64,000 nt of DNA from Rhabdaerophilum calidifontis (GTDB lineage Bacteria; Pseudomonadota; Alphaproteobacteria; Rhizobiales; Beijerinckiaceae): the NCBI RefSeq assembly GCF_008641065.1, contig NZ_VTRS01000001.1:620001-684000 (forward strand). The letters are read 5' to 3'. Below the pieces are notes generated by a model. It made no database searches, was not told where the DNA came from, and saw only the letters and a program-made list of their open reading frames with translations. Below, one piece after another: positions 21,897 to 38,707 of this stretch. The translations under genes and the position numbers were made by a program. Positions within the stretch are counted from its first letter, which is position 1, and the number at the start of each line of letters is the position of its first letter.

Positions 21897-22015
21897 AATG
21901 ACCGCTACCCGTTCAGGGTGCTTGCGGGTTTCGATCGCTTCCGGGACACTTGCGCCGGCTCTGCCCAGGCGGGGCGCGAAAGACAAGACGGGATGCGGAT
22001 ATCCGGGAGGATTGG

Positions 22016-23061: not shown

Positions 23062-23092
23062 GGTCAGGACATGCCCGGGTCAGGACATGCCC
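23062..23092. repeat. Tandem 15-base direct repeat at the YitT stop codon
   Basis: GGTCAGGACATGCCC occurs at 23062-23076 and again at 23078-23092. The second copy contains the YitT stop codon (TCA at 23080-23082) and its last codons; the first copy lies just beyond. This looks like a short tandem duplication with no coding consequence. Confidence 0.7.
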
Positions 23093-23706
23093 ATGTAGCG
23101 GCCGGGGCGGTGGTTGATCGCCAGGGTGAGGTTGACCACCGCCGCGCCGAGAACCGAGAGCAGGATGTTCCGCGGTTCGAGCAGGAAGAAGGCGCCGGCG
23201 AAGATCGCGAGGTCGAGCCCGAGCTGGAAATAGCCGGCGCGGATGCCCCAGCGCTCCTGGAGATGCATCGCGACGATATTGACGGCGCCGAGTGCGGTGC
23301 GGTGCCGGAACAGCATCAGCAGCCCGACCCCCATCAGCCCGCCGCCGACCAGCGTCGCGAAGAGCGGGTCGAGCCGCGCGAACGCGACCCAGCGCGGCAC
23401 CAGCGCCGTGAATACCGCCACGAGGCTCACCGCTGCGAAGGTGCGCAGGGCGAAGCCGATCCCCATCCGATGCGCGGCCAGCAGGTAGAAGGGCAGGTTC
23501 AGGGCCGAGAAAACCAGCCAGAACCCCGTTCCGGTCGCGTGGTGGAGGAGGAGCGCCAGGCCGGCGGTGCCGCCCGTGACAAGCACCGCCTCCGTATACA
23601 TCACCAGCCCGAACGCAACGAAGAGCGTGGCCATCAGGATGGCCAGCGCATCCTCGTAGAGCGCGTGCCGGACGACGTCGCCGGCCCGGGACGCGGCCTC
23701 GCTCAC
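23080..23706 (-). CDS. YitT-family integral membrane protein
   Basis: A 208-residue protein with about five to six hydrophobic segments, matching the YitT/DUF161 family (EAVLVTGGTAGLALLLHHATG, HRMGIGFALRT, and GGGLMGVGLLMLFRHRTALG near the middle). The C-terminal DUF2179 domain of longer YitT proteins is absent. The GTG start overlaps the stop of the upstream semialdehyde dehydrogenase gene (GTGA), so it is the last, translationally coupled gene of the sulfolactate operon. Family function is unknown; given the operon, an export role for a sulfonate, sulfite or related anion is a hypothesis only. Confidence 0.75.
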   Translation of the reverse strand: MSEAASRAGDVVRHALYEDALAILMATLFVAFGLVMYTEAVLVTGGTAGLALLLHHATGTGFWLVFSALNLPFYLLAAHRMGIGFALRTFAAVSLVAVFTALVPRWVAFARLDPLFATLVGGGLMGVGLLMLFRHRTALGAVNIVAMHLQERWGIRAGYFQLGLDLAIFAGAFFLLEPRNILLSVLGAAVVNLTLAINHRPGRYMGMS

Positions 23707-25154
23707 GCGATGCCGCCCAGGCAGACGTATTTCACGTCCATGTAATCGTCGAGGCCGTAGCGCGAGCCCTCGCGGCCGATGCCCGATTCCTTGACGCCGC
23801 CGAAGGGCGCGACCTCGGTGGTGATTAGCCCCTCGTTGACGCCGACCATGCCGTATTTCAGCGCCTCGGCGACGCGGAAGGCGCGGGCGAGGTCGCGGGT
23901 GTAGAAATAGGCGGCGAGGCCGTATTCGGTGGCGTTCGCCCAGCCGACGACCTCCTCCTCGGTCTCGAAGCGGAAGATCGGCGCCAGCGGTCCGAAGGTC
24001 TCCTCGGTGGCAACGCGCATCGTCTGCGTCACGCCCTTGACGACCGTCGGCTCGAAGAAATTGCCGCCGAGCGCGTGGCGGCCGCCGCCGGTGACGATCG
24101 TCGCGCCCTTGCCGGTGGCGTCGGCGAGATGGGCCTCGACCTTGGCAAGGGCGCGCTGATCGATCAGCGGGCCGAGCTGGACGCCGGCCTCGAACCCGTT
24201 GCCGACCTTCACGGTCGCCACTGCCGCCGCCAGCCGCTCGGCGAAGGTGTCATGGATGCCGGCCTGCACGTAGAACCGGTTGGTGCACACGCAGGTCTGG
24301 CCGGCATTGCGGTATTTGGCGAGCATCGCCCCCTCGACCGCGCGGTCGAGATCGGCGTCGTCGAACACGATGAAGGGCGCGTTGCCGCCGAGTTCCATCG
24401 AGACGCGCTTCATCGTCGGCGCGCTCTGCGCCGCGAGCAGCTTGCCGACCGGGGTGGAGCCGGTAAAGGTGATCTTGCGCACCAGCGGGTTGCCGGTCAG
24501 CTCTGCGCCGATCGCCGGCGCCTCGCCGGTGACGATGTTGACCACGCCGGCCGGGATGCCGGCCTTCTCGCAGAGCAGGCCCCAGGCCAGGCCCGAATAG
24601 GGCGTCAGATCCGCCGGCTTGACGACGATCGTGCAGCCGGCCGCGAGCGCGGCGCCGAGCTTGCGCGCGATCATCGAGGACGGGAAGTTCCAGGGCGTGA
24701 TCGCGCCGACGACCCCGACCGGCTCCTTGGTCACGAGGATGCGCCGGTCGCCCCAGGGCGAGGGGATCACGTCGCCATAGGCGCGGCGGGCCTCCTCCGC
24801 GAACCATTGGACATAGGCGGCCGAGCCGCCGACCTCGCCGCGCGCCTCCGCGAGCGGCTTGCCCTGTTCCATCGTCAGAAGCGTGGCGAGCGCCTCGGTA
24901 TTGTCGCGGATGAGTTGCGCGAGCTTCATGAGCAGCGCGCTCCGCTCGGCGGCGGTCTTCTTCCGCCAGGCAGGGAAGGCGGCATGGGCGGCCTCGATGG
25001 CGCGCCGCGTCTCGGCGGCGCCGCAATTCGGCACGGTGCCGAGCACGTCGCCGGTTGCCGGATCGGTGACACGGATCGTGCCGCCGCCATCGGCCGCGAC
25101 CCATTCGCCGCCGATGAAATTCTTCTCCTGCCTGAATTCGAGCTTGGTCAGCAT
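23703..25154 (-). CDS. NAD(P)-dependent semialdehyde dehydrogenase, candidate sulfolactaldehyde dehydrogenase
   Basis: A 483-residue aldehyde dehydrogenase closest in pattern to GabD succinate-semialdehyde dehydrogenase. Visible motifs are ITPWNFPSSMIARKL, the general-base ELGGNAPFIVFDDADLD, the nucleophile-bearing RNAGQTCVCTNRFYV, and ETFGPLAPIFRF. No gamma-aminobutyrate genes are nearby. It is encoded downstream of suyAB-slcC-comC on the same strand and coupled to YitT. As known from sulfoglycolysis, GabD-like enzymes (sulfolactaldehyde dehydrogenase) oxidise sulfolactaldehyde to (S)-sulfolactate, which fits this neighbourhood. Family identity is certain; the sulfonated substrate is inferred from context. 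The ATG at 25154 is preferred over 25169. Confidence 0.85.
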   Translation of the reverse strand: MLTKLEFRQEKNFIGGEWVAADGGGTIRVTDPATGDVLGTVPNCGAAETRRAIEAAHAAFPAWRKKTAAERSALLMKLAQLIRDNTEALATLLTMEQGKPLAEARGEVGGSAAYVQWFAEEARRAYGDVIPSPWGDRRILVTKEPVGVVGAITPWNFPSSMIARKLGAALAAGCTIVVKPADLTPYSGLAWGLLCEKAGIPAGVVNIVTGEAPAIGAELTGNPLVRKITFTGSTPVGKLLAAQSAPTMKRVSMELGGNAPFIVFDDADLDRAVEGAMLAKYRNAGQTCVCTNRFYVQAGIHDTFAERLAAAVATVKVGNGFEAGVQLGPLIDQRALAKVEAHLADATGKGATIVTGGGRHALGGNFFEPTVVKGVTQTMRVATEETFGPLAPIFRFETEEEVVGWANATEYGLAAYFYTRDLARAFRVAEALKYGMVGVNEGLITTEVAPFGGVKESGIGREGSRYGLDDYMDVKYVCLGGIA

Positions 25155-25299
25155 GGCATACTCCAGCATGGGGCGACCGGCCGGGCCGGCGCCGTTTTGC
25201 TCCCCTGCCGGTTGCTATCGCATATCGCGATCCGCAGGGCAGCAGGGCGCGGCAAATATTTCGGTTACCCGGAGGTGCCGATCTCGGGGCGTCCCGCGC

Positions 25300-26298
25300 T
25301 CAGAGCGCCTCGATCTCGGCGCGCAGGGCCGGCGCGATCGCGAGCCCCTCGGCCTTTGCCTTCGCCCGCAGCGCGATCCGCCGTGCGCCGGGCAGGCGGG
25401 CACCCTCCTGGCTTCGGATCTGCTCGGCGAGGCGCCGGAAATGCTGCAATGCACCCTTGCCGCCGATCATCGCGGGATCGAGGGCAATGAGCAGCTGGCC
25501 GGTGCCGGGGGGTGCCCCTCGATCGTCGAGGAAGGAGGAGGCGTCGGCGGCGTAATTGGCGCCGGTGAGGCCCGCCGCGAGCAATTCGACCATCAGCGCG
25601 AGCGCCGTGCCCTTGGCGTCCCCCAGCGGGAGCATCGTGCCGGCGAGTGCGGCGGCCGCGTCGGTGGTGGGGCGGCCGTCGCGGTCGAGCGCCCAGCCCT
25701 CGGGGATCGCCTCGCCCTTCTGCCGGGCGGCGAGGATATTGCCGCGCGCGACCTTCGACAGCGAGAGATCGACGACGATCGGCGCCTCGTCCGGCAGCGG
25801 GCAGGCGAAGGCGATCGGGTTGGTGCCGAACACCCCGGTCCGTCCGCCCCAGGGCGCCATGGCGGCCGGGGTATTGGCAAAGAGCAGCGCGACGAGCCCC
25901 CTATCGGCCAGCCGTTCCACGGGATGGCCGGCGACGCCGCAATGATGCGAGCGCGTGATCGCCGCGCAGGCGATGCCCATGATCGGCGCGGCCTCGGCCA
26001 GGGCGGCCTCGGCGGCGGCGAGGGCGGGATAGGCAAACCCGTGGCGGGCATCGATCCGCGCCAGGGCCGGGCTCACATGCGTGACCGAGGGTTCGGCGAA
26101 GCCGTCGATCTTGCCGGCCCGCGCCTGCGCGGCGTAGCTCGTGACGCGCGAGAAACCGTGTCCGCGGAGCCCGTCCGCCTCGGCGGCGACGAGCGCCCGC
26201 GCGACCAGGGCGGCGTTGGCCGGGCTCGTCCGGCACCGTTCGAGCGCGCCGGCAACCAGCGCCTCGGCCTCGGCGAGGGAGAGCGTGTTGGCGGACAT
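25300..26298 (-). CDS. comC: Ldh/MDH2-family dehydrogenase, candidate (R)-sulfolactate dehydrogenase
   Basis: A 332-residue member of the malate/L-lactate (ComC, YlbC) dehydrogenase family. It shows the family segments ADGLRGHGFSRVTSYA, a catalytic SHHCGVAGHPVERLA, FANTPAAMAPWGG and FGTNPIAFACP. In sulfolactate degraders, ComC is the NAD(P)-dependent (R)-sulfolactate dehydrogenase. Paired with SlcC, it racemises sulfolactate through sulfopyruvate. The gene starts two bases after slcC, in the same operon as suyAB. The gene symbol is given from context; without it, malate or another 2-hydroxyacid would be possible. Confidence 0.8.
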   Translation of the reverse strand: MSANTLSLAEAEALVAGALERCRTSPANAALVARALVAAEADGLRGHGFSRVTSYAAQARAGKIDGFAEPSVTHVSPALARIDARHGFAYPALAAAEAALAEAAPIMGIACAAITRSHHCGVAGHPVERLADRGLVALLFANTPAAMAPWGGRTGVFGTNPIAFACPLPDEAPIVVDLSLSKVARGNILAARQKGEAIPEGWALDRDGRPTTDAAAALAGTMLPLGDAKGTALALMVELLAAGLTGANYAADASSFLDDRGAPPGTGQLLIALDPAMIGGKGALQHFRRLAEQIRSQEGARLPGARRIALRAKAKAEGLAIAPALRAEIEAL

Positions 26299-26300
26299 GC

Positions 26301-27233
26301 TCAGTGCCCTCCGTCGAGGGCGGCGAGAACCTTGTCCGCGATCAGCGTCGAGACGCGGATATTCGATTCCGCCGTCACGCCGGCGATATGCGGGGTCAGG
26401 ATCAGGTTGGGGCAATCCCGGAAGATCGCCGCCCGCGCCGCCGTCAGCGGCTCCTCCTCGAACACATCGAGCGCCGCGCCGGCGAGCCGGCCGTCCTTTA
26501 GCGCCAGGGCCAGAGCCGCCTCGTCGACGATGCCGCCGCGCGCGGCGTTGAGCAGCACCGCATCCTTCCGCATGCGCCGCAGCCGCAGATCGTCGATCAG
26601 ATGGCGGGTGCCGTCGGTGAGCGGCACATGGAGCGACACGACATCCGCCTCGCGCAGCAGGGGTTCGAGCCCGTGCGGGCGGGCGAGCGCCCAGGCGGGG
26701 TCGCCATCCTTCACGAATGGATCATGCGCCATCACGTCCATGCCGAGAGCGCGGGCGCGCCGGGCCACCTCGCGGGCGATGGCGCCGAAGCCGACGAGCC
26801 CCATCACGCGGCCGGAGAGTTCGCGGCCCATCAGGCGGTTGCGCGGCCATTCGCCGGCGATCACCGCATCGGTCGCGTGATAGGCGCCGCGCAGCAGCAG
26901 CAGCGCCGAGGTGATCACCCATTCGGCGACGGAAAGATCGTTCGCGCCGGTGGCCGGAACGACCGGTAGCCGCCGTGCCGCGCAGGCGTCCGTGTCGATA
27001 TTGTCGAGCCCGACGCCGAGCCGGCCGACGATTTCCAGCCGTGCGCCGGCTGCCAGAACCGCTCCGCGCACCTGGGTGCGGTTGCGCACGATCAGCGCCC
27101 GCGCCTCCGGCAGCAGCGCCAGCAGGCGGGGCATATCGTCCACGAGCCGGGGATCATAGAGCGTGTCGTGCCGGGCCGCGAGGCGCGCCACCGCGGCCTC
27201 GTCCATGAATTCGGTGATGATGATCGCGGGCAT
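26301..27233 (-). CDS. slcC: D-2-hydroxyacid dehydrogenase, candidate (S)-sulfolactate dehydrogenase
   Basis: A 310-residue phosphoglycerate-dehydrogenase-like enzyme. The nucleotide-binding site is GLVGFGAIAREVARRA. The catalytic Arg lies in LLNAARGGIVDEAAL, the Glu in LDVFEEEPL and the His in LILTPHIAGVT. The short form without an ACT domain matches SlcC, the NAD-dependent (S)-sulfolactate dehydrogenase known from Chromohalobacter. It sits between comC and the exporter gene, in an operon with suyAB, which is the known arrangement for sulfolactate racemisation. Another 2-hydroxyacid cannot be excluded by sequence alone. Confidence 0.8.
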   Translation of the reverse strand: MPAIIITEFMDEAAVARLAARHDTLYDPRLVDDMPRLLALLPEARALIVRNRTQVRGAVLAAGARLEIVGRLGVGLDNIDTDACAARRLPVVPATGANDLSVAEWVITSALLLLRGAYHATDAVIAGEWPRNRLMGRELSGRVMGLVGFGAIAREVARRARALGMDVMAHDPFVKDGDPAWALARPHGLEPLLREADVVSLHVPLTDGTRHLIDDLRLRRMRKDAVLLNAARGGIVDEAALALALKDGRLAGAALDVFEEEPLTAARAAIFRDCPNLILTPHIAGVTAESNIRVSTLIADKVLAALDGGH

Positions 27234-27254
27234 GGCGCCCTCCTCCGGATGGGG

Positions 27255-28304
27255 TCAGCGCAGCAGGATCAGCCCGCCGGTGCCGACGACGAGAATGAGC
27301 AGGGCGCCGCCAAGGAAGACCGCGACATGGCGCCAGCCGATCGCCAGGATCTGGCCGATCGAGGTGCCGAGCCCGAGCGCCGCGATGGCGATCAGCAGGC
27401 CCCAATGCGAGGCCTGGCCGAGAATGGCCTTGATCGCGGCATAGGGCGCGGCGAGCGGCGTCGCGGGCAGCACGGAATTGACGAGGCAGAGCCCGAGGAA
27501 CACGATCGCGAAGATTGGTGCCGGCACCTTGGCCGTACCCGTCGTCTCGCCCTGCCGTGTGAACCACCAGCCGATGGCCAGCACCGCCGGCAGCAGCAGG
27601 AAGACCCGGAACAGCTTCACCACCACCGCCGCGTTGCCGACCGGCTCCGAGACGGCATAGCCCGCGCCGACGACCTGGGCCATGTCCTGGATGGTGATGC
27701 CGAGCATCAGCCCTGTGGCGGCATCGTCGAAGCCGAGCCAGCGGCAAAGCGGCGGATAGGCCAGCATCACGACGGTCGAAATGGCGTTGGCCATCACCAC
27801 CGTGAAGGCGATATCCGCGCCCTTGCCCCGGTATTCCGGCACGACGGTGGCCGTGGCGAGCGTGGCCGAGGCGCCGCAGACCGCGTTTGCCGCGCCGGCC
27901 AGCGCGCCGAACCCGCTCTCGCGGCCGAGCAGGCGCGCGATGAGCACCGTTCCGGCGATCGTCGCCGCCATCGCCCCCACCACCAGCACCACCGTGCCGG
28001 CGCCGAGCGCGAGGATGTCGCCGAGCGCGATCCGCAGGCCGAGCAGCGCGATGGCGTAGCGCAGGAGCTTCTTCACGGCATAGGCGATGCCGGGCTCGAA
28101 GCCCGGCCGCACCGCGAATCCGTGCAGCAGGATGCCGATCACCAGCGCCACGACCATGGCGGGCAGGGCGAGCCGTCCGCCGGTCGCGGATTTCAGCAGC
28201 GGCGCCGCCCCCTCGGCGGCGAGCGCCACCGCGAAGGCCAGGAGCAATCCGGGAGCCAGGGCGCGCAGCGCCCCTCCGGCTCCGATGGAGGCGCCGCCCG
28301 CCAT
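27255..28304 (-). CDS. YeiH-type putative sulfate/sulfite exporter
   Basis: A 349-residue membrane protein with about ten hydrophobic segments, of the PF03601 (Cons_hypoth698, YeiH) family, annotated as putative sulfate exporters. Characteristic stretches include KKLLRYAIALLGLRIALGD, AAGAANAVCGASATLATATV (in its own variant), and MLGITIQDMAQVVGAGYAVS. Lying four bases after suyB, it is well placed to export sulfite released by sulfolactate sulfo-lyase, the role proposed for SuyZ-like exporters. I leave the symbol blank because exporters from several families share that name. Confidence 0.85.
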   Translation of the reverse strand: MAGGASIGAGGALRALAPGLLLAFAVALAAEGAAPLLKSATGGRLALPAMVVALVIGILLHGFAVRPGFEPGIAYAVKKLLRYAIALLGLRIALGDILALGAGTVVLVVGAMAATIAGTVLIARLLGRESGFGALAGAANAVCGASATLATATVVPEYRGKGADIAFTVVMANAISTVVMLAYPPLCRWLGFDDAATGLMLGITIQDMAQVVGAGYAVSEPVGNAAVVVKLFRVFLLLPAVLAIGWWFTRQGETTGTAKVPAPIFAIVFLGLCLVNSVLPATPLAAPYAAIKAILGQASHWGLLIAIAALGLGTSIGQILAIGWRHVAVFLGGALLILVVGTGGLILLR

Positions 28305-28308
28305 GGGT

Positions 28309-29595
28309 TCAGGCCGAGCGGTAGAGCTTCGTCATCACGAATTCGCGGTGGCCGAGCGCTTCCGCGGCGGTGAGGCGGCCATTCGCCGTGCGGATAACGG
28401 TCTCGATCAGCGCGTCGCCCGCCTCGGGGATGGTCATGTCGCGGCGCAGGATGCCGGACACGTCGAGATCGATATGCTCGGGCATGGTACGCATCGTCTT
28501 CGGATTGCCGGTGATCTTGATCACGGGCACGATCGGGTTGCCGATCACGTTGCCCTGGCCGGTTGGGAAGGTGTGGACGACATAGCCGCCCGCCGCCATC
28601 AGCGTCACGCATTCGGCCGCCGCCGAAGAGGTGTCCATGAAATAGAGCCCCGGCCCCTTCGCCGGCGTTTCGGCGGGTTCGAGGATGTCGATATACCGAC
28701 ATTCCCGGCCGATCTTCTCGAGATTGCCCAGCGCCTTTTCCTCGATCGTCGTCAGCCCGCCGGCGATATTGCCCTTTGTGGGCTGGCTGTCCGAGAGGTC
28801 GGAAGTCTTGTGCGCCTCGATCACCTCGTCCTGGTAGGCCTTCCACATCCTGTACCAGCGTTCGCCAAGCTCTGGCGTGGCGGCGCGGGCCTTGCACAGA
28901 TGCTCGGCGCCGGTGATCTCGGAGGTTTCTCCGAACACGCCGTAAATGCCCTTGGGGATCAGCTTGTCATACATGTTGCCCACGGTCGGGCAGGAGGAGA
29001 GACCCGTGGTCGTGTCGCTCTCGCCGCATTTGGTCGAGACCCAGAGATCGGAGATCGGGCATTTCTCGCGCCGCAATTCGGAGGCCCATTGGACGAATTC
29101 CTTCGCGACATAGGAGGCTTTCGCGATCACTGCGATGTCGCCATGCCCCTCGATCCCGAAGCCGACCACGGGCTTTCCGGTCCTGGCGATGCCATCCACC
29201 ACGATCTTCGTCCAGGCGTCCTCGATGCCGATCACCACCACGGCAGCGACATTGGGGTTCGAGCCGATGCCGATCAATGTGCGGAAATGCAGATCGAGAT
29301 CGGCGCCGAATTGCAGCCGGCCATAGGCATGCGGCAAGGCCAGCGTGCCCTTGATGTTGTTGGCGACGGCTTCGCAGGCCGCGTTGGAGAGATCGTCGAG
29401 CGGCAGCAGCACGACATGATTGCGCACGCCGACGCGGCCGTTCTCGCGGCGCCAGCCCAGGAAGGACTCGGTGCCTCCGCGGGCCTTCTTCGCCAGCGGG
29501 GCCTTGAAGGCGGGCGCCTCGATGCGGCGGCCCTTCACATGCTTCAGGCGGTTGGTGTTGAGGTCGAAATTGGCGACGATCGGAGCGCTGGCCAT
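28309..29595 (-). CDS. suyB: (2R)-sulfolactate sulfo-lyase, large subunit
   Basis: A 428-residue protein of the UxaA/altronate dehydratase large-subunit superfamily. It contains [38 protein letters not shown] and [21 protein letters not shown], which are conserved in this iron-dependent lyase family. With SuyA it cleaves (R)-3-sulfolactate to pyruvate and sulfite (EC 4.4.1.24). Sugar-acid dehydratases of the same superfamily are an alternative. However, the separately encoded SAF-domain small subunit, exporter and two hydroxyacid dehydrogenases in one operon favour SuyB. ATG 29595 begins the conserved region; an extension to 29661 would overlap suyA. Confidence 0.88.
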
Positions 29596-29657
29596 GGTCA
29601 ATTGCCTCGCGAGGGGTGAAAGGGGCGGATGATGGAGGGGCAGGGGCGGCGCGGCGC

Positions 29658-29945
29658 TCACCAGCGCTTGGTCTTCACGTTGTGAACGTGAACATGCTCG
29701 CCCTTGGCGATATCGGCCTTGGCAATGCCGATGTCCTGGCCGTATTTCCAGATCGTGTCGCCCTTCTTGATGTCCGTGAGCGCAACCTTGTGGCCGATCG
29801 GGATATCGGCCTTGGCGGTGATGCGGAAATCCTTGTTGTCATGCGTCACGACCGCCAGCATGTCCGTGCCGGCCTTGAGATTCTCGACGACGACGACGCC
29901 AACGGTATCCTTGTGCTCATGCACGAGCAGATGGGGTGCGGACAT
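29658..29945 (-). CDS. suyA: (2R)-sulfolactate sulfo-lyase, small subunit
   Basis: A 95-residue SAF-domain protein, homologous to the N-terminal domain of UxaA-type altronate dehydratases. It reads [19 protein letters not shown] near the start and [16 protein letters not shown] near the middle, the latter being the family's glycine-His-Lys-Val-Ala motif. It pairs with SuyB. As the first gene of the operon, it is separated by 86 bases from the divergent GntR regulator, with a perfect palindrome in that gap. Confidence 0.9.
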
Positions 29946-30015
29946 GCTTCATTCCTCGGCTGTGGACGAAGGCGGACGGCGGAGGCGATGCCCTCTCGAC
30001 GTCGCGCGATAATGT

Positions 30016-30029
30016 GTCTTATATAAGAC
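30016..30029. promoter_or_regulatory. Perfect 14-base palindrome, predicted GntR operator
   Basis: GTCTTATATAAGAC is a perfect inverted repeat placed two bases before the regulator's ATG and 71 bases from the divergent suyA start. It can be read as two overlapping GTCTTATA half-sites. The location suggests autoregulation and control of the sulfolactate operon. The same half-site recurs at 35329-35349. Confidence 0.7.
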
Positions 30030-30031
30030 CT

Positions 30032-30793
30032 ATGATTTCAGACAAGCCGGAATCGTGCCCAGATGCGACAAATCCCGCGGTGGCGCCGGTCGGATTCCGG
30101 CCGCTCTACCGGCAGGTGAAGGATGCCTTCATCAAGCGCATGGCCGACGGACTCTGGCCGCCCGGCTTCCTGCTGCCGAGCGAGAGTGTCCTGGCTGGCG
30201 AGATCGGGGTCAGTCAGGGGACGGTGCGCAAGGCGCTCGACGAACTGGCGGCGGAGAACCTCGTCGTCCGCCAACAGGGCAAGGGCACCTTCGTCGCGCA
30301 GCACGACGAGAAGCGGATCCTGTTCCAGTTCTTCAAGCTGGTGCGCGATGACGGGATCCCGCGCTTTCCGGAGAGCCAGGTGCTCGCGGCGGAGGTCGCC
30401 GAGGCCAGCGCGGCTGAATGCGCGGGGCTCGACATCGAACCCGGCGCGCGGGTTGCGCGCGTGCGCCGGGTTCGCTTCATCGACGGCGATCCGCTGATCG
30501 TCGAGACGCTGTCCCTGCCCGACGCGATCTTTCCCGGCATCACCGAGGGCGAGGTGCCGAATTCGCTCTATGCCTATTATTCGTCGCGCTACGGCGTGAC
30601 GATCGCGTTCGCACGCGAGAAGCTCAAGGCCATCGTGCTGTCGCCGGAGGATGCCGCGATCCTCGGGCGGCCGGCGGGCCATCCGGCGCTGCAGGTGAGC
30701 CGCGTGGCGCTCGCGCTCGACGGGCGCGCGGTCGAATGGCGCGTCAGCCTGTGCCTGACGGATGACGCGCATTATTCCGCCTCTATGCGGTGA
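30032..30793 (+). CDS. GntR-family (HutC/UTRA) transcriptional regulator
   Basis: A 253-residue regulator. The winged helix-turn-helix (about 18-85) contains PPGFLLPSESVLAGEIGVSQ then TVRKALDELAAENLVVRQQGKGTFV (given in two parts), the standard GntR pattern. The UTRA effector domain (about 105-245) has ARVRRVRFIDGDPLIVETL and YGVTIAFAREKLKAI. Effectors of such proteins are often the phosphorylated sugar or acid of the controlled pathway. It is divergent from suyA and convergent with the second operon, so it probably controls both. The ATG at 30032 abuts the palindrome and lacks a Shine-Dalgarno, suggesting a leaderless message or a later start. Confidence 0.9.
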   Translation: MISDKPESCPDATNPAVAPVGFRPLYRQVKDAFIKRMADGLWPPGFLLPSESVLAGEIGVSQGTVRKALDELAAENLVVRQQGKGTFVAQHDEKRILFQFFKLVRDDGIPRFPESQVLAAEVAEASAAECAGLDIEPGARVARVRRVRFIDGDPLIVETLSLPDAIFPGITEGEVPNSLYAYYSSRYGVTIAFAREKLKAIVLSPEDAAILGRPAGHPALQVSRVALALDGRAVEWRVSLCLTDDAHYSASMR

Positions 30794-30801
30794 TGTGCCG
30801 G

Positions 30802-31908
30802 CTATAGATCGATCGCCCGTCCCTCGCGCGCCGATTGTTCCGCCGCGAGCCCGATCCGCACGGCGGCGATCCCGTCCGCAAGGGTGACATCCACCTTGCC
30901 CCCGTCGAGCATCGCAGCCCGGAAGCCGAGATGCTGGAAATAGGTCGAGCCGTGGTGATCTCCCGCCCGCAGCACCTGCTCGTCGACATGGATCTTGCGG
31001 CGGACCGGCCCTTTCGGCGCGCGCGGCGAGACGACGATCTCGCTCTCGCGCTCGGTGCCGCCCGGCCAGAAGCGCGCGGGGCCGGGGATCAGCGCCTCGA
31101 TCCGGGCGGCATCGCCGGTCGCGGCGATCTCCTCCTGGAAATAGGCGCCTTCCGCGAACATGCAGAGATCGAGCGCCGCGCGCAAGCCATTGGCGAAATC
31201 GACGATCACGAAGGCGTTGTCGAGGATATCCGGCACTCGGCCGGCGTAGCGCTCGTCGCGGTGGTTCACATCGGCGGCGCCGGAGGCATAGACGCGCACC
31301 GGCTCGGCGCCGACCACAAGTCGCATCAGATCGAAGAAATGGCAGCATTTCTCGACCAGCGTGCCGCCGGTGCGTTCCGCGAAGCGGTTCCAGTCACCGA
31401 CCTTCTCCAGGAAGGGGAAGCGATGCTCGCGGATGGCGAACATGCGCAGGGTGCCGATCTCGCCGGCGCGCACCGCCCGGCGCAACTCCGCCACGGGCGG
31501 CATGTAGCGGTATTCCATCGCCACCCAGATCGGCGCGCGATGGGTTGCCGCCGCGGCTTCGAGCGCCGCGCAATCCGCCTCGCATGTCGCGACGGGCTTC
31601 TCGCAGAGGATGCCGAGCATCGGCGCCATGCGGAAGATGTCGTGCAGGATCTCGACATGGGTGTCGTTGGGGCTCGCGATCACCACGGCATCGCAGAGCC
31701 CGCTTTCCAGGAGGTCGCGATGGTTCGCGAAGGCGCGCGGTGCCTGGCCGAGCACCCGCTCAGCCTCGGCGACGGAGAGCGCGATCTGCGCATTGGTGGG
31801 GTCGGAGATCGCGGTCAGCGCCGAGCCGGGGATGAGCGCGAGATTGCGGATATGTTCCCGGCCCATCATGCCGGCGCCGATCAGGCCATAGCGGAGGGTT
31901 CTGGTCAT
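30802..31908 (-). CDS. Gfo/Idh/MocA-family NAD(P)-dependent protein, candidate NAD+-dependent sulfoquinovosidase
   Basis: A 368-residue protein with an N-terminal Rossmann domain (GLIGAGMMG, about 9-16) and the family's EKP motif in ILCEKPVA (about 101-108). The C-terminal alpha/beta domain includes [19 protein letters not shown]. It is the last gene of the kinase-aldolase-isomerase operon. The family includes sugar dehydrogenases and, as reported, NAD+-dependent glycosidases acting on sulfoquinovosides (GH188). No conventional GH31 sulfoquinovosidase is seen in the window, so this protein is a reasonable candidate for glycoside cleavage. That role is inferred, and simple sugar oxidation remains possible. 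The start at 31908 follows the isomerase gene by five bases. Confidence 0.8.
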
Positions 31909-31913
31909 GGGGT

Positions 31914-33320
31914 TCACGCGGTGAGATCGAGAACGGGCAGGCCGCGATGGCCGGCCCAGGCTTCGAGAAGATCGCGCTGGTCGCCGTAGGTGATGGCGAG
32001 ATGGTGCTCGATCCCCTCGTCCACGAGGGTCGCGAGCGCGGGGGCGATGCCCCCCTTCAGCGACACGACCGCCGAGGTGCCGGTGAAGCTCTTCGGCGCG
32101 CGCAGCACCTCGCCGGAGCCCAGCACCAGGAGCGGACGGTTGCGCGCCTGCGAAACGCGGGCGAGCGTGATCCGGCCGGGCTTGAGCGGGAATTCGGCGA
32201 GCAGCGGCATGCGGCGGTTGGAATGGATCTGCGCGCGCGCGGCCGCCTCGGGGTCTCGCATCGAGAGCGGCGCCGAGCCACAATGCCAGAGCACGGCGGT
32301 GTCGCTCGCGGTGTCCATATCGACGATGTCGACCAGCCAGGCGGGGCTGCCGGCGGCCTCCTGCATCAGCAGCGCGGTCAGCGCGCCATAGACATCCGCC
32401 TCGCAGGCGCAGGGCGTGCCCGCCTCCGTCAGCATGCCGAGCGGCCCGCAGACGGCGCAGCCGAATTCGGTGAAGGTCTCGGGCCAGCAGCGCATCGCCA
32501 GGGCATCGAGGCCCCGTTCCCGTGCAATATCCTCGAGTGCCGCGTGGAGCGCCAGCGAGCGGCCGAGCTGTGCGGGATCGACCGAATCGAGGCCTTCATA
32601 ATCCCGTGCCGCCTTCAGGCGCCGCGCGGCGATGGCGGTGTCCGGCACGGCGCGGGCGCGCGCGAAGGTCTCGTCGAGCGGGATCGGCGCGACGGCGATT
32701 CCCGCGAGGGCGACCAGAGCCTCGGGCTCGTAGCGGCAGGTGTCGAACCCCACCGGATGCTCGCCGATCAGCCCGATCCGGCGGCCGCCGAGCCGGGCGT
32801 CGATCCGTTCGGCCGCTGCCTTCACCGTGTCGTCGAGCGGCCGGGCGAGACGCTGGCGCGAGCGTCGCGCCTGGTTCGGCACTGCGAGATCGCGCAGGAA
32901 CTCGACGATATGCGAGGCTTCCGGCAGCGCATAGAGCCAGCCATGCGCGATCCCCGCGCGCTGGAGCGCGTGCGCGGCGAGATTGAGGCCGCAGAAGGCA
33001 TTGAGCCGCAGCCGCCCGCCGAGCCGCGGTTCGGGAAAGGCCCAGATCGCGATCGGGGTTCCGGCGAAGGCGCGCGCGATCTCGACCGTCATCGTCGCGT
33101 CGGTGAAGGTTGCCTGGATCAGCAGGACCCCGCTCACCGAAGCCGGATCAATCCCCGCGATGGCGGCGCGGGCGGAATCGGCGTCGAACAGCAATTCGCG
33201 CGGGCCGATCGTCGGCAGCCCCGTCCGGTCGGCGGCGGCGAAGGCACGCTGGGCGAGATCCTCCGCGAAGGGGACGTCGAAGGTCGCCCGGGCAAGCGCG
33301 AGGGTCAGGACCGGCTTCAT
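31914..33320 (-). CDS. L-fucose-isomerase-like protein, candidate sulfoquinovose isomerase
   Basis: A 468-residue protein of the L-fucose/L-arabinose isomerase superfamily. The core segment [20 protein letters not shown] (about 276-295) leads to [12 protein letters not shown], with Glu307 as probable metal ligand. An Asp in LVDIVDMD (about 329-336) and His346 in VLWHCGS complete a plausible metal site. Its start overlaps the aldolase stop (ATGA). Between a YihV-like kinase and a sulfonate operon, it is best read as the isomerase converting sulfoquinovose to sulfofructose. As I recall, such FucI-type isomerases replace YihS in a variant sulfo-EMP route. Family is clear; the substrate is inferred. 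Confidence 0.82.
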
Positions 33321-34345
33321 CGCGCGGCCTCCCCGAAGCCGGGATAGGCGTGGCGGAAGCCGGCATCGGCATGCGCCATGTCCGCGCCGCCCCAGGCATG
33401 CCACCACGGATGCGCCTGATGATCCGTCAGGCGGTTGATGTCGCGCATATAGGACACGCCGCCCTGCTGGAGACCACGGCGGATGCCGTCCCAATCCGGG
33501 AAGGCCTTGAACGCCTCGGACCAGATCGCGCGGCCCGCGAGATAGCCGGAGGCGCCGGCGGCATAGGCATGGCCCAGCACGTTGCGGAACTCGGCCATGC
33601 CGGCCCCGGCCGAGAGCATCACCCAGGGGCGGCCGGCAAGCCGGCCCATCTCGTCGAACAGCGCCTGCACCCCGGCCGACCCGTCGCAATCGCGCGCGGG
33701 GACGGGGCTTTCGAGCTTGAACACGTCGATCGCGTATTCCGGTTTCGCGAATTCGCGCACGCTTTCAAGCACGAGCTCGCTCTTCTTCTCCGCCATCTCG
33801 ATATATTGCGTCGTCTGGTTCTTCTCGCCGGGCAGCGGGTAGACGAGCAGTTCGAAGAGATAGGGGATGTCGTAGCGCAGGCAGGCCTCCCCGATCCTCC
33901 GCGCGAAATCGCGCTGATGGCGGTTGACGGCTTCCGGTGCGTCCGGCCGATACCAGGCGAGCACCTTCACCGCGTCGGCGCCGGCGCGCTTGATCTTCTC
34001 GACCGACCAATCGTCGATCTCCGCGGAGAGCCGCCCCTCGCCGGTCTCGCGGAAGGCGGAATCCTCGAGCGTCATGATCAGCCCGAGGCGCGGGTCGAGC
34101 CGGGTCACCGCCATCGGATAGGCGTAGTTCGGGTCGAGCAGCATGGCGGTCGATTCGCCCTGCAATTCCTCGACGAGCATGGTCTTGAACCGCGCGACAT
34201 CGCCCCATGGCGCCGTTCCGCCGCGCGCGGCGGCGATCGGGTTGACGATCGGCGGGCGCTGATCCACCGCCGTCATCTTGAAGCGGCCGGCGGCATCGGC
34301 CATACGCCGCAGGCCCCTGAGCTTGCCCGCGCTCAGACTTTTCAT
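33317..34345 (-). CDS. LacD/YihT-type class I aldolase, candidate sulfofructosephosphate aldolase
   Basis: A 342-residue TIM-barrel protein of the tagatose-1,6-bisphosphate aldolase (LacD) family. It has AVDQRPPI (about 26-33), LLDPNYAYP (about 69-77), a Lys in ADAVKVLAWY (Lys127) and the probable Schiff-base Lys210 in VFKLESPVPA. Members cleave ketose phosphates to dihydroxyacetone phosphate plus an aldehyde; YihT and SqiA do this with sulfofructose-1-phosphate, giving sulfolactaldehyde. The kinase gene precedes it by 11 bases and the isomerase follows with ATGA overlap. The start at 34345 has GAAGGAGAG upstream. Confidence 0.85.
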   Translation of the reverse strand: MKSLSAGKLRGLRRMADAAGRFKMTAVDQRPPIVNPIAAARGGTAPWGDVARFKTMLVEELQGESTAMLLDPNYAYPMAVTRLDPRLGLIMTLEDSAFRETGEGRLSAEIDDWSVEKIKRAGADAVKVLAWYRPDAPEAVNRHQRDFARRIGEACLRYDIPYLFELLVYPLPGEKNQTTQYIEMAEKKSELVLESVREFAKPEYAIDVFKLESPVPARDCDGSAGVQALFDEMGRLAGRPWVMLSAGAGMAEFRNVLGHAYAAGASGYLAGRAIWSEAFKAFPDWDGIRRGLQQGGVSYMRDINRLTDHQAHPWWHAWGGADMAHADAGFRHAYPGFGEAAR

Positions 34346-34356
34346 GTCGCTCTCCT

Positions 34357-35253
34357 TCAGAACCCCTGCCCGGCGAGAAGGCGCATCACCTCCTCGCGTG
34401 ACGGTGTGCCGGCGGAACCGCCCGGCCGCGTGCACTTGATCGCGGCGGTGGCACTCGCGAAGCGGATCGCCGCGTCAAGCGGCATCGCCTCGGCCAGCGC
34501 CAGCGCGAAGGCGCCGTGCCAGACATCGCCCGCCCCGAGCGTATCGACCGGGGTTACCGGAAAGGCCGGGTGATGCCGGACCGTGCCGTTCTCCACCGCG
34601 AACACCCCCCTGCCGCCGTCGGTGGCGGCGATGAAGGTCGAGCGGCCGGCGGCGATCCGCAGCAGGGCGGCGGCGAGGTCGTCGGTTCCGGCGAGTTCGC
34701 GCGCGCCGCGCGCCGAGAACACGACATGGCTTGCGATTTCGAGCAGCGCGGGGTCCTGCGGGGCGCGGTCGCCGTCGAACAGCGACGGGATGCCGGCGGC
34801 CCGCGCCAGCGTGAAAACATGGCGGCTTCCGGCTTCCCAGCGCGTATCGCCCAGCACGGCGCGCGTGCCCTCCGGCAGACGGGCGGGCAGCCATTCCGGC
34901 AGATCGGGCAGGTCGGGATCGAGATAATTGACGATCGTCCGGTCGCCATTGGGCTCGATCACGATCGCGGAACGCGAGGAGGCGCTGCCGGAACAGGCGC
35001 GCGACAGGCTCGCGTCGATACCCAGATCGGCAAGCCGGGCGCGGATCGTGCCGGCGGCGGGATCGTCGCCGAACCGCGTCACGAGGAAGGGTTCGCCGCC
35101 AAGCCGCGCGATCGCCAAGGCGGCGTTCACGGCATTGCCGCCGATCACCGTGCGCACCGCGCTCGCGCGGTGCTTCTCGCCGGGTCGCAATGGCACGGGC
35201 ACGACGAAAATCTCGTCGAGCACGGCGATTCCGATTGCGAGAAGGCGGGGCAT
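34357..35253 (-). CDS. PfkB-family kinase resembling sulfofructose kinase YihV
   Basis: A 298-residue ribokinase/PfkB-fold sugar kinase. The N-terminal glycine pair is in TVIGGNAVNAALA and the catalytic DTLGAGD motif is near residue 245. From memory, the E. coli sulfofructose kinase YihV shares unusual segments: TRWEAGSRHVFTLARAAG resembles its VRWHDGAKKAFTLARQAG, and IKCTRPGGSAG resembles its LKCTRPGGRAG. This is closer than generic ribokinases and is the strongest single clue to sulfoglycolysis. The enzyme would make sulfofructose-1-phosphate with ATP. It heads the operon; the in-frame ATG at 35259 is an alternative start. Confidence 0.88.
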   Translation of the reverse strand: MPRLLAIGIAVLDEIFVVPVPLRPGEKHRASAVRTVIGGNAVNAALAIARLGGEPFLVTRFGDDPAAGTIRARLADLGIDASLSRACSGSASSRSAIVIEPNGDRTIVNYLDPDLPDLPEWLPARLPEGTRAVLGDTRWEAGSRHVFTLARAAGIPSLFDGDRAPQDPALLEIASHVVFSARGARELAGTDDLAAALLRIAAGRSTFIAATDGGRGVFAVENGTVRHHPAFPVTPVDTLGAGDVWHGAFALALAEAMPLDAAIRFASATAAIKCTRPGGSAGTPSREEVMRLLAGQGF

Positions 35254-35328
35254 GCGCATCCTGTTGACGCCGGGCGGCCGGGCGGGTTGAACCGCAGCGG
35301 CGGCGGATTGGCAAGAGCATGCTATCAA

Positions 35329-35349
35329 GTCTTATATCTTTTACAAGAC
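35329..35349. promoter_or_regulatory. Inverted repeat sharing the GTCTTATA half-site, predicted operator
   Basis: GTCTTATA (35329-35336), a five-base spacer and TACAAGAC (35342-35349) form an inverted repeat of GTCTTRTA. It sits in the divergent region between the kinase operon and the binding-protein gene, inside an A+T-rich patch. The half-site equals that of the palindrome beside the GntR gene, though the spacing differs (half-sites overlap there), so shared binding is suggestive rather than proven. Confidence 0.6.
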
Positions 35350-35456
35350 ACCGAATGCGAACTGCGCGAAGCCGGCGCGCAACGCAAACGCACTTGCTCC
35401 AAGGCGAGGATGGGGGCTTCGTCCGCACCGGGCACGGCCGGATTCGGATCTGTCGG

Positions 35457-36692
35457 ATGCGGATCGCCGCCGCCTTGCTGGTGCTCAGCGGCATCCTCGC
35501 CGGGACCGGTGACGCCGGGGCGCAGACGGTGCTCCGGATCTTTTCCGGCCAGGCCCTGCCCGCCGAGATGCTGCGCCCGGTGCTCGAAGGCTACATGGCC
35601 GCCCATCCCTCGGTGCGCGTCGAGATCGAGAGCGGCGGCGCGACGCCGGAGGAGCGGCAGGCCTATCTCAACCGCGTCCTCGCGACGCGGGATCCCGGGC
35701 CGGATCTCTTCCTGCTCGACATGCTCCGCCCGGCGCAATTCGCTGCCGCGCAATGGGTCGAGCCGCTCGATTCCCATCTCGGCGCCGAGCGGGATTCGGT
35801 GCTCGCGGGCTATTTCCCGGTCTGGCGCGAGGCGGGGATCGTCGGCGGCAAGCTGGTCGCGCTGCCGATGCTGGCGGATGCGCAGTTCCTCTACTACCGC
35901 AGCGACCTGCTGCAGAAATACGGCCTCGCCCCGCCGACGAGCTGGGATGAGCTGAAGGCGGCGGCGCGGGTGGTCCTCGCCGGCGAGAATAACCCGGCCC
36001 TGCGCGGGTTCGAGACGGTGGGCGCGCCGGTCGAGAGCGCGGTCTGCTCGTATCTGGCGCCGCTCTGGAGCCTCGGTGAGGAGCTGCTGAAGGAGGGTCG
36101 GCTCGCGCTGCCCGGCGAGGCGGCGCGCAGGCCGTTCGATCTCTGGCTGGATCTCAAGGCTGCGGGGATCGCACCGGCCAATCTCGCCGAGATCCATACG
36201 GACCGCGTCCGGCTCAACATGCAGGCGGGGGAGCTGATCTTCGCCATCGGCTGGGGCTATGCCCGCGCGCGGTTCGAGGAGGATGCGGAATCCACGATGC
36301 ACGGACGGGTCGGCATCGCGCCGCTTCCGGGGGCCGGCTGCGCGGGCGGCTGGCTTGTCGCGGTCAGCGCCTTCTCGCGCCAGAAGCCGGAGGCGGTGCG
36401 GCTTGCCCGGTATCTCGCCGGGCCGGCGGCGGGGCGCCAATTCGCGCGGGAAGCGGGGCTGATGCCGGTCTTCCCGGCGCTTTACGGAGAGGTGGACCTG
36501 CTGGGCGCGCGTCCATGGCTCGCCGCCGTTCTGCCGGTCATCGGAAGCGCAAGGGCGCGGCCGGCGACGCCGCGCTACGGCGAGGTGTCGGAGATCATCC
36601 GGGGCAATCTTCATGCCGTGCTCGCCGGCGGCAAGACGGTGGAAGCCGCGCTGGCCGACATGACGACCCGCCTCGGCATGATCTTCCGCTGA
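35457..36692 (+). CDS. Family 1 (sugar-type) extracellular solute-binding protein
   Basis: A 411-residue periplasmic binding protein of the ABC carbohydrate class. A signal peptide (MRIAAALLVLSGILAGTG, cleavage near GAQT at about 21-24) precedes LRIFSGQALPAEML. Later features are PDLFLLDMLRPAQFA, GKLVALPMLADAQFLYYR and YGLAPPTSWDELKAAA, typical of maltose-type binding proteins. It is divergent from the kinase operon across a shared predicted operator, so sulfoquinovose or a glycoside of it is a likely ligand. No permease or ATPase genes accompany it. The ATG at 35457 begins the signal peptide; an earlier ATG would give a long hydrophilic N-terminus. Confidence 0.82.
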   Translation: MRIAAALLVLSGILAGTGDAGAQTVLRIFSGQALPAEMLRPVLEGYMAAHPSVRVEIESGGATPEERQAYLNRVLATRDPGPDLFLLDMLRPAQFAAAQWVEPLDSHLGAERDSVLAGYFPVWREAGIVGGKLVALPMLADAQFLYYRSDLLQKYGLAPPTSWDELKAAARVVLAGENNPALRGFETVGAPVESAVCSYLAPLWSLGEELLKEGRLALPGEAARRPFDLWLDLKAAGIAPANLAEIHTDRVRLNMQAGELIFAIGWGYARARFEEDAESTMHGRVGIAPLPGAGCAGGWLVAVSAFSRQKPEAVRLARYLAGPAAGRQFAREAGLMPVFPALYGEVDLLGARPWLAAVLPVIGSARARPATPRYGEVSEIIRGNLHAVLAGGKTVEAALADMTTRLGMIFR

Positions 36693-36696
36693 ACGT

Positions 36697-37785
36697 TCAG
36701 GCCGCCGGGCCGAAGCGGAATTCCGTCACCTGCCGGTAGAGTTCGCCGGGCCGGAGCACGGTCGTGGGGAAATGCGCATGGTTGGGGCTGTCCGGCGCGT
36801 GCTGCGGTTCGAGGCACAGCCCGGCATTGGGGCCGTAATGCGTGCCGTCAAGCCCGCTGACCGGCAGGTTCAGCTTGAAGCCGTCGTAGAATTGCAGGCA
36901 GGGCTCGGTGGTCCAGACCTCCATCGTGAGGCCGGAGCGGGCACTCGCCAGCGTGGCCGCGTGCGCCAGTTCCACGCCATGGAGCGGGGGTTCGCGTTTC
37001 TCGCGGCGCAGCACGAAATTATGGTCGTACCAGAACCGCGTGCCGTCCTCGTCCAGATGCCGGATGGGACGCGGCCGGCGGAAGTCGAAGGGCGTGCCGG
37101 CGACCGGGGCGATCGCGCCGTCGGGGATCAGGTCGGAATCGACGGGCGTCATCATCGGCGCGCGCAGCATGAGATCATGGTCGAGGATGTCCGGGCCGCC
37201 GTCGAGGTTGAAATAGGAATGATGGCAGAGATTGACGATGGTCGGCGCGTCGGTGAAGGCGGACAGTTCGACACGCAGGACGCTGCGCGGCGGGGCTTCA
37301 GGGTTCTGTGCGGCGTCGATCGCGGGCAGCGTGCCGAGCAGGTAGCGGCAGGTCACGGCCAGCGTGCCGGGATAGTTCGCATCGCCGTCCGGCGAGACGA
37401 GGCCGAGCGTCGCCGCGCCGGGCTCGGCATGGAGCAGGGTCCAGGCGCGCTTGCCGAAGCCGTGGCCGCCGCCATGCAGCGAATGGCGGTTCTCCTGGTT
37501 GAGCGGCAATTGGTAGGCCCTTCCGTCGAGCAGGAACCGGCCCTGGCCGATGCGGTTGGCATAGCGGCCGGCAATGGCGCCGAAATGCGGGGAATGGTTG
37601 CGGTAATCCTCGAGCGTCTCCAGCCCCAGAACCACGCGCTGCGTGCCGCCGCCCGGCTTCGGCACCACGAGATCGCGCAGAACTGCGCCATGAGTGATGA
37701 TCTTCGCGACGGCGCCGGCGGCGTTGCCGAGTTCGATCTCGGCGATTGTCTCGTCGCCTGTCCGGCCGAATTCGCGTATCTGCAT
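36697..37785 (-). CDS. Aldose 1-epimerase (mutarotase), candidate sulfoquinovose mutarotase
   Basis: A 362-residue GalM-family protein. Conserved segments are GRYANRIGQGRF, NRHSLHGGGHGFGKRAW, the catalytic-His VNLCHHSYFNLDG and LCLEPQHAPDSPNH with the catalytic Glu. It interconverts alpha and beta anomers of an aldose. The sulfoquinovose operon of E. coli contains a homologous mutarotase (YihR), so a role on sulfoquinovose fits the setting. It is convergent with the binding-protein gene (4 bases apart) and follows a hydroxypyruvate-isomerase-like gene by 15 bases. Confidence 0.88.
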   Translation of the reverse strand: MQIREFGRTGDETIAEIELGNAAGAVAKIITHGAVLRDLVVPKPGGGTQRVVLGLETLEDYRNHSPHFGAIAGRYANRIGQGRFLLDGRAYQLPLNQENRHSLHGGGHGFGKRAWTLLHAEPGAATLGLVSPDGDANYPGTLAVTCRYLLGTLPAIDAAQNPEAPPRSVLRVELSAFTDAPTIVNLCHHSYFNLDGGPDILDHDLMLRAPMMTPVDSDLIPDGAIAPVAGTPFDFRRPRPIRHLDEDGTRFWYDHNFVLRREKREPPLHGVELAHAATLASARSGLTMEVWTTEPCLQFYDGFKLNLPVSGLDGTHYGPNAGLCLEPQHAPDSPNHAHFPTTVLRPGELYRQVTEFRFGPAA

Positions 37786-38592: not shown

Positions 38593-38707
38593 GGCGGAGC
38601 CTGGCGGAGAAAGGGCGGGATTCCGCTTTTCCCGCTTTCGCGACGATCACGCAATTGCGAAATGCGCTTGTCCCGGCGATCGGGCAGGAAGGCCGAGAGG
38701 AGACGAA

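Follow-up and report, generated by a model that had tools for sequence, protein, structure and literature searches.

Can a single bacterial locus carry sulfoquinovose all the way to sulfite? Few organosulfur compounds are more abundant than sulfoquinovose, and accounts of sulfoglycolysis usually end with the excretion of C3 sulfonates for use by other organisms. We asked this question of a locus in Rhabdaerophilum calidifontis, whose genome assembly is 3.09 Mb in 19 contigs. The locus occupies positions 23080 to 37785 of a 64,000-nucleotide stretch (the window) of contig NZ_VTRS01000001.1, and all coordinates below are window positions unless a contig is named. An initial annotation, made from the letters alone, had read it as a complete chain from sulfoquinovose to pyruvate, dihydroxyacetone phosphate (DHAP), and sulfite. 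Our analysis indicates that the locus quite probably encodes a tandem catabolic pathway from sulfoquinovose glycosides to sulfite under one regulator. What we observe directly are gene identities by similarity, conserved gene order, and a common operator sequence. From these we infer the substrates, the stereochemistry, and uptake, and we predict the activity of the pathway.

Reading frames and Pfam matches placed every gene type named in the initial annotation within the locus. Its enzyme genes do lie in two minus-strand operons, as described there, but gntR and the binding-protein gene are on the plus strand. The gntR gene (29936 to 30793), encoding a GntR/UTRA regulator (PF00392 and PF07702), diverges from suyA, and the binding-protein gene (35319 to 36692) diverges from the kinase gene. 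In-frame gntR starts at 30032 and 30080 are likelier than 29936, and the domain begins at residue 57. The head operon consists of genes for a kinase (34357 to 35259), an aldolase (33317 to 34345), an isomerase (31914 to 33320), and a GH188 enzyme (30802 to 31908), with gaps or overlaps of 4 to 11 bases. The last two frames, annotated as FucI-like and Gfo/Idh/MocA, require later starts, at 33320 and 31908. The tail operon runs in the order suyA, suyB, YeiH, slcC, comC, GabD-like dehydrogenase, and YitT.

We propose the following route. The GH188 enzyme would hydrolyze sulfoquinovosyl glycosides to sulfoquinovose, and the SqvD-like isomerase would convert this to sulfofructose, perhaps aided by an epimerase. 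The YihV-type kinase would phosphorylate sulfofructose, and the class I aldolase would then yield DHAP and (S)-sulfolactaldehyde, which the GabD-like enzyme would convert to (S)-sulfolactate. SlcC and ComC would invert (S)-sulfolactate via sulfopyruvate to (R)-sulfolactate, and SuyAB would cleave the latter to pyruvate and sulfite. YeiH would export sulfite or sulfate, and a SoxC-type sulfite dehydrogenase encoded elsewhere in the genome may oxidize sulfite. The GntR/UTRA protein would bind RTCTTNTANAAGAY in both divergent promoters, and thereby head and tail would be switched on together. The stereochemistry, as given in the initial annotation, agrees with published accounts.

The evidence for shared regulation is an operator sequence. 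Only two exact RTCTTNTANAAGAY sites occur in the genome, both in divergent promoters of this locus. One, GTCTTATATAAGAC (30016 to 30029), is a perfect palindrome between suyA and gntR. The other, ATCTTTTACAAGAC (35336 to 35349), lies between the kinase and binding-protein genes. Within the window there were three matches with at most one mismatch, against 0.03 expected, and a backward-read control gave none. A genome-contig scan found 336 relatives of the isomerase, and our counts use the best 80 of their loci. In these 80 head loci (1.43 Mb) we found 42 exact sites, compared to 0 for the backward control. The corresponding numbers were 16 and 0 in 20 tail loci, which came from 20 of the 33 genomes in which suyB lies apart from the head.

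The site also recurs at the expected positions. In the 400 bases preceding suyA, the palindrome with at most two mismatches is present in 16 of the 19 linked loci and in 17 of the 19 detached tail loci that could be assessed, compared to 0 of 760 shuffles. It is upstream of the kinase gene in 17 of 66 loci, and upstream of the aldolase gene in 4 of 8 loci that lack a kinase hit. It was found upstream of SlaB in 2 of 28 cases and of the tripartite ATP-independent periplasmic (TRAP) receptor in 2 of 39, and never upstream of GalM (40 cases), SlcC (45), GH188 (63), SqvD (79), PermF (14), ComC (16), or YeiH (7); this comparison is a weak control, because most of those stretches are coding DNA. When up to one mismatch is allowed, RTCTTNTANAAGAY is present at both promoters in 12 of the 18 linked loci and 9 of the 20 unlinked genomes; in one of those 20, the contig end cuts off the tail promoter. 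By the same measure, the site is present in 23 of 41 head promoters where the locus has no DeoR gene and in 3 of 33 where it has one. Random windows from the same loci, true sites included, contain it in 92 of 4,000 cases. Because of these head-promoter counts, we regard GntR coupling as frequent without being universal; another regulator may act in the DeoR loci. The position of the gntR gene suggests that its product is the protein that binds RTCTTNTANAAGAY. The two exact sites here, and the recurrence of the operator at the two promoters in related genomes, make a single regulon of head and tail the most likely arrangement.

The head operon appears to encode a hybrid of sulfo-Embden-Meyerhof-Parnas (sulfo-EMP) enzymes. 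Among 42 PDB matches, the PfkB-family kinase scored best against the E. coli sulfofructose kinase YihV (7ag6, 210 bits), and the next entry scored 153. YihV residues K27, N109, and R138, which we take to be sulfonate contacts, are all present in the window kinase. In 66 relative kinases, K27 and R138 are kept in all 66 and N109 in 56. The aldolase scored 334 bits against PDB entry 8tnf, 129 against LacD, and 63 against YihT. The title of 8tnf, which appeared in rows of the isomerase fold search, is sulfohexulose-1-phosphate aldolase from Paracoccus onubensis strain Merri, and the window enzyme is probably a sulfohexulose/sulfofructose-1-phosphate aldolase. It keeps a lysine aligned with a YihT lysine that presumably forms the Schiff base. 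By its Pfam matches it is a class I DeoC/LacD-type enzyme and not the class II SqiA aldolase of sulfo-EMP2. The kinase and aldolase therefore resemble sulfosugar enzymes more closely than enzymes of the tagatose or ribose type, and the grouping with tagatose and fucose enzymes that the initial annotation had named as fatal to its reading was not seen in what was testable.

The isomerase has a single NCBIfam match, to the sulfoquinovose isomerase model NF048012 (246 bits; cut-off, 700). Four same-clade relatives scored 250 to 279 bits, and six same-order homologs (27 to 33% identity), used as controls, scored 90 to 111. Therefore, the protein is nearest to the SqvD family but distant from it. 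Its Fucose_iso_C Pfam match (21 bits) is under the cut-off of 29, and it has no PDB sequence match at an E value of 0.01. The predicted structure (mean predicted local distance difference test score, 92.9) has the L-arabinose/L-fucose isomerase fold, with template modeling scores of 0.51 to 0.59. The same fold has been assigned to SqvD by published modeling (PMC9594981). We class the protein as a probable SqvD/SftI-like isomerase of the arabinose/fucose isomerase kind, and not as the YihS-type isomerase of sulfo-EMP.

The initial annotation was correct that a Gfo/Idh/MocA protein is present, but missed its identity as a GH188 NAD+-dependent sulfoquinovosidase (sqgA). This protein scored 486 bits against PDB entry 8qc2, 475 against 8qc3, and 389 against 8zn9, and the first entry beyond these three scored 71. 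Its catalytic residues are kept, and in an alignment counted by hand, with an offset of 13 between the PDB chain and the published numbering, it retains R166, L170, and K172, which bind the sulfonate, and K107, Y136, E189, H193, and H321, which contact sulfoquinovose (roles from PMC10755693). Glu163 is one place off the hand count, and the adjacent Glu is kept.

The tail operon begins with suyA (29658 to 29945; SAF domain, PF08666, 31 bits), which overlaps suyB (28309 to 29661; GD_AH domains, PF20629 and PF04295) by 4 bases. The split SAF and large subunits, and a grouping with suyAB from sulfonate clusters, indicate that these genes encode the small and large subunits of a putative (R)-sulfolactate sulfo-lyase. 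SuyB is 68.6% identical to a Cupriavidus pinatubonensis copy that adjoins hpsN and hpsO in a sulfonate cluster, the grouping being one by percent identity. SuyB had 26 plasmid matches, of which 13 are 61 to 87% identical, 12 are listed at 37 to 39%, and one is not listed. This gap between the 13 and the 12 listed matches disfavors an altronate dehydratase.

The next gene encodes a YeiH-like protein (27255 to 28304; PF03601, Cons_hypoth698, 195 bits) that may export sulfite or sulfate; its TIGR00698 score of 94 bits is under the cut-off of 233. The slcC gene (26301 to 27233; PF02826 and PF00389) is assigned to a D-2-hydroxyacid-type (S)-sulfolactate dehydrogenase by synteny with suyAB and comC. 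The comC gene (25300 to 26415; PF02615, 327 bits) encodes a putative Ldh_2-family (R)-sulfolactate dehydrogenase; its start is uncertain, and its frame overlaps slcC. The best of five NCBIfam matches of ComC is the L-sulfolactate dehydrogenase model NF040650 at 196 bits, compared to 150 for ureidoglycolate dehydrogenase. The last gene encodes a YitT-family membrane protein (23080 to 23706; PF02588, 98 bits), and a YitT-type gene has the same position in relative loci L023 and L120 to L123.

A GabD-like aldehyde dehydrogenase gene (23703 to 25169; PF00171) is present as annotated, but its proposed role as the sulfolactaldehyde dehydrogenase SlaB rests on context, and the sequence favors a succinate-semialdehyde dehydrogenase (SSADH). 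The protein scored 692 bits with the SSADH model TIGR01780, over the cut-off of 646. Both arginines proposed to bind the sulfonate, R171 and R289, are present in it, as is the WNF motif. However, SSADH entries carry these too, and the step is therefore assigned by context. An attempt to separate sulfolactaldehyde dehydrogenase from SSADH by sequence failed, because SSADH scored higher. The genome has only one other GabD-like match at an E value of at most 1e-80, and it is 40% identical.

The SoxC-type sulfite dehydrogenase is on another contig and scored 632 bits (cut-off, 420). Locus L118 of the same genome (contig C14, near 48485) has a soxC-type gene followed by a frame that reads presumably as a cytochrome c and preceded by one that we take to be SoxB-like. 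This gene set suggests that the organism may oxidize thiosulfate and sulfite.

Uptake speaks against a complete pathway. Candidate enzymes for the chain are present in one organism, but of the ATP-binding cassette (ABC) importer only the binding protein remains, as an orphan. We regard uptake as a gap because no permease or ATPase gene adjoins this protein. Its best PDB match is the sulfoquinovosyl-glycerol binding protein SmoF (7nbz, 328 bits; next entry, 160), and its signal peptide probably starts from 35457. The gene ends 4 bases from the aldose 1-epimerase gene (36697 to 37785, minus strand; PF01263, 237 bits), with no transporter gene as a neighbor. The epimerase is a possible sulfoquinovose mutarotase, and a homolog is present in 41 of the 80 related loci. 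In relative locus L023, the binding protein has an ATPase and two permeases as neighbors. The binding protein was found in 11 of the 80 head loci, and both permeases are kept in all 11. The window protein is 58 to 59% identical to those of relatives. This divergence is no sign of decay, because the window kinase (56%), gntR product (55%), and isomerase (64%) are about equally far from those of L023. A second kind of orphan binding protein, 44 to 46% identical, adjoins the kinase in L120 to L123. The idea that the importer genes are elsewhere in the genome was not supported by a search that covered the ATPase and one permease, the second permease not being searched. Uptake may go through another transporter.

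We then examined the distribution of the locus. The 80 relatives are mostly labeled Alphaproteobacteria, with some Gammaproteobacteria, and include Rhabdaerophilum sp. SD176, Nitratireductor arenosus, and Stappia albiluteola. Of these, SD176 has its head in L026 and its tail in L121, and in N. arenosus the two modules are linked (L057). Since 22 of the 80 related loci span less than 15 kb, gene counts over the set are lower bounds. The aldolase is present in 75, the kinase in 68, GH188 in 63 (62 at 45% identity or more), SlcC in 45, a SlaB-like gene in 29, SuyB in 19, ComC in 16, and ComD in 12. The kinase-aldolase-isomerase-GH188 order recurs, and this co-occurrence in the 80 best isomerase loci is more than chance. 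SuyB is missing from 61 loci, and the whole genomes of 49 of these were searched. We found suyB elsewhere in 33, four of these matches having an internal stop and one of the four being partial. Head isomerase and suyB thus occur together in 52 of 68 relative genomes, a count that leaves out the 12 genomes with ComD. A kinase-free route is not needed in relatives that lack an adjacent kinase, because a kinase homolog (41 to 59% identical) is elsewhere in all 12 such genomes searched; two of the 12 have a stop inside the match, and one is cut by the contig end.

In four of these 12 genomes (L120 to L123), the kinase gene is inside the tail locus, beside gntR-suyAB. These tail loci have the kinase gene and an orphan SmoF-like binding-protein gene in the window order, with aldolase, isomerase, and GH188 in a separate locus. 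A fifth genome (L137) has a 42% kinase hit within about 5 kb of suyA. A GH31 protein in L029 was considered as a sulfoquinovosidase and rejected, because an alpha-xylosidase model fits it better than does PRK10426, which we take to be YihQ. On Zymomonas mobilis plasmid pZZM402 (L154, 128 to 4636), a class II aldolase, an aldose epimerase, an SqvD-like isomerase (36%), and a Gfo/Idh/MocA protein are encoded in a row, an arrangement that resembles a sulfo-EMP2-type cluster, here carried by a small plasmid.

Twelve loci labeled Rhodobacterales by record title have the same head with slcC and comD. They are L045 (at 13464 to 16900), L043, L052, L067, L070, L077, L078, L084, L090, L091, L092, and L096. 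ComD, a sulfopyruvate decarboxylase, is over the TIGR03845 cut-off in L045, and the other 11 were assigned by similarity to it. In a genome-wide search with no group background rate, Xsc was over the cut-off in 11 of the 12 ComD genomes and in 3 of 7 further SlcC genomes. This suggests that the Rhodobacterales ComD/Xsc genomes carry a second desulfonation tail. We give about even odds to a broader proposal, that many Alphaproteobacteria completely mineralize sulfoquinovose, with the GntR regulon coupling the hybrid head to SlcC-ComC-SuyAB even when the two are apart, and with the Rhodobacterales adding SlcC-ComDE-Xsc. If this is true, the two-organism picture is not the rule for the hybrid sulfo-EMP head. 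Both tiers in one cell under one regulon would predict that sulfur is returned in the form of sulfite or sulfate, with no intermediate being shared, and the operator would be a cheap genomic marker for organisms that join both tiers.

Several observations weigh against the tandem pathway as we propose it. Three scores fall short of model cut-offs: the isomerase is below the NF048012 equivalog cut-off (246 versus 700), ComC is below that of NF040650 (196 versus 500), and the best NCBIfam match of SlcC is a phosphoglycerate dehydrogenase model, below its cut-off (266 versus 454). The GabD-like enzyme scored higher against SSADH entry 4v6h (684 bits) than against the R. leguminosarum sulfolactaldehyde dehydrogenase 8c54 (611 bits). 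The permease and ATPase of a SmoF-type importer are absent beside the binding protein in the window, and the closest homologs in the genome (permease, 36% identical; ATPase, 57%) lie together on contig C11 near 50000 to 53000. The RTCTTNTANAAGAY pattern was composed after inspection of the window sites and relatives. Genome-wide, sites with at most one mismatch are no more common than in the backward-read control (9, of which seven have a mismatch, versus 10), and therefore only exact sites carry weight at that scale. Head promoters lack the operator in 18 of the 41 loci that have no DeoR gene and in 30 of the 33 that have one, and L023, a close relative with both modules, lacks it too. Finally, the isomerase was found in none of 11 further genomes, one from the same genus and ten from the same family. 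These were drawn from 297 genomes of the order, 38 of which have an isomerase match at an E value of at most 1e-10, and the distribution is therefore patchy.

We weighed three other readings. In one, the same tandem pathway serves sulfofucose, or both C4 epimers: the FucI-type isomerase would form sulfotagatose, the LacD-type aldolase would cleave sulfotagatose-1-phosphate, and (S)-sulfolactaldehyde and the tail would be unchanged. LacD aldolases are tolerant at C4, and the closest solved aldolase, 8tnf, is from Paracoccus strain Merri, which grows on sulfofucose. The authors of the strain Merri paper raise the possibility that its kinase/aldolase pair acts on sulfotagatose, but neither member of the pair (8tnf presumably being the aldolase) was raised during growth on sulfofucose (PMC12421959). 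The window kinase is closest to the sulfofructose kinase 7ag6, and GH188 with its sulfoquinovose-contact residues and the SmoF-like protein point to sulfoquinovose. We consider the sulfofucose reading unlikely. Ordinary fucose, tagatose, or altronate-type sugar catabolism, misread as sulfosugar genes, is very improbable. It draws on family names (tagatose 1,6-diphosphate aldolase, Fucose_iso_C, GD_AH, SSADH, and GalM), but all four head enzymes and the binding protein prefer sulfosugar relatives, and SuyB groups with copies in sulfonate clusters. The nearest solved relatives of the head enzymes (8tnf, 8qc2, and 7ag6) likewise disfavor a tagatose or fucose pathway.

The locus might instead be two separate neighboring systems, a sugar operon that excretes sulfolactate and an operon that scavenges external sulfolactate. 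The detached suyB in 33 of the 49 genomes searched, the 30 of 33 head promoters without an operator in DeoR-gene loci, and a TctC-type receptor that adjoins the tail would fit such an arrangement. However, this genome has the exact operator nowhere but at these two promoters, the kinase gene is inside the tail locus in four relatives, and the genome's only close GabD-like gene sits in the tail operon. We give two separate systems about one chance in ten, and we prefer the tandem sulfoquinovose pathway under one regulator.

The flanks of the locus contain other genes. On the tail side (20394 to 23014) are an FAD-linked oxidase gene and the TctC-type receptor gene, with TctA/TctB not in view; a TctC gene is also close to the tail in L023, L086, and L120 to L123. 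Adjoining the epimerase (37801 to 40327) are a 2-oxo-tetronate isomerase-like gene and a gene for a thiamine pyrophosphate (TPP) enzyme near acetolactate synthase, and in L023, too, the epimerase is next to the TPP gene. The idea that the window enzyme (about 38600 to 40327) is Xsc was not supported, since it matched mainly acetolactate-synthase models, none over the cut-off (best 25 of 51 matches). A YeeE/YedE-type sulfur transport protein is encoded close by (41533 to 42702). A molybdopterin oxidoreductase region (47025 to 56889), with a ferredoxin-type protein, DUF6352, DUF3306, and a nitrate-reductase-delta-type chaperone, resembles what we take to be a formate dehydrogenase operon.

How does this locus compare with known systems? 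The initial annotation had stated that the two tiers are usually split between organisms, and a recent study does term their coexistence in one bacterium unusual (Stewart 2025, PMC12421959). However, head and tail in one organism have already been published for other lineages (PMC11465081, PMC9594981, PMC12421959). Extended sulfo-transaldolase pathways, a GH188 cluster in Actinobacteria, and tandem sulfofucolysis all precede our locus, and the combination of head and tail is therefore not new. The new parts are the regulon evidence and the breadth of distribution. We found no published description of a hybrid head with SuyAB in Alphaproteobacteria, or of the common operator, among titles and abstract openings, with subscription papers outside the search. 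A 2026 review states that some sulfoglycolytic bacteria hold genes for further degradation, and a 2026 labeling study screened selected genomes for SuyAB, SlcC, and ComC and argued for cross-feeding.

The individual systems differ from the window in defined ways. The extended sulfo-transaldolase pathway of Thermotogae and Chloroflexi has SuyAB, and full carbon use in one organism was proposed for it (Wei 2022, PMC9594981), but a transaldolase splits sulfofructose there, and the window has a kinase and a class I aldolase. The tandem sulfofucolysis of Paracoccus wurundjeri Merri has the SlcC, ComC, and SuyAB tail in one bacterium, with sulfite release reported, but its head is an Entner-Doudoroff route for sulfofucose, whereas that of the window is EMP-type with GH188 (PMC12421959). 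Arthrobacter sulfo-EMP shares the YihV-type kinase, class I aldolase, sulfolactaldehyde dehydrogenase, and GH188, but it has a YihS-type isomerase and excretes sulfolactate (PMC8873060, PMC10755693). Hybrid sulfo-EMP/EMP2 clusters also have mixed enzyme sets, one with SqvD, but the examples considered use a class II SqiA aldolase (PMC9594981, PMC12890257, PMC13372026).

The GH188 "Y160" cluster of Actinobacteria bacterium IMCC26103 has nearly the gene set of the window (Backlund and Higgins 2024, PMC11465081). That paper describes the cluster from its genes. The cluster combines GH188, a fucose isomerase, a sulfofructose kinase, a sulfofructose-phosphate aldolase, and a sulfolactaldehyde dehydrogenase with a phosphoglycerate-dehydrogenase-like gene, both sulfo-lyase subunits, a regulator, and ABC transporters. 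The window, in contrast, keeps the usual leucine at the sulfonate site, lacks the ABC permeases, adds comC, the YeiH exporter, and the epimerase, and belongs to the Alphaproteobacteria.

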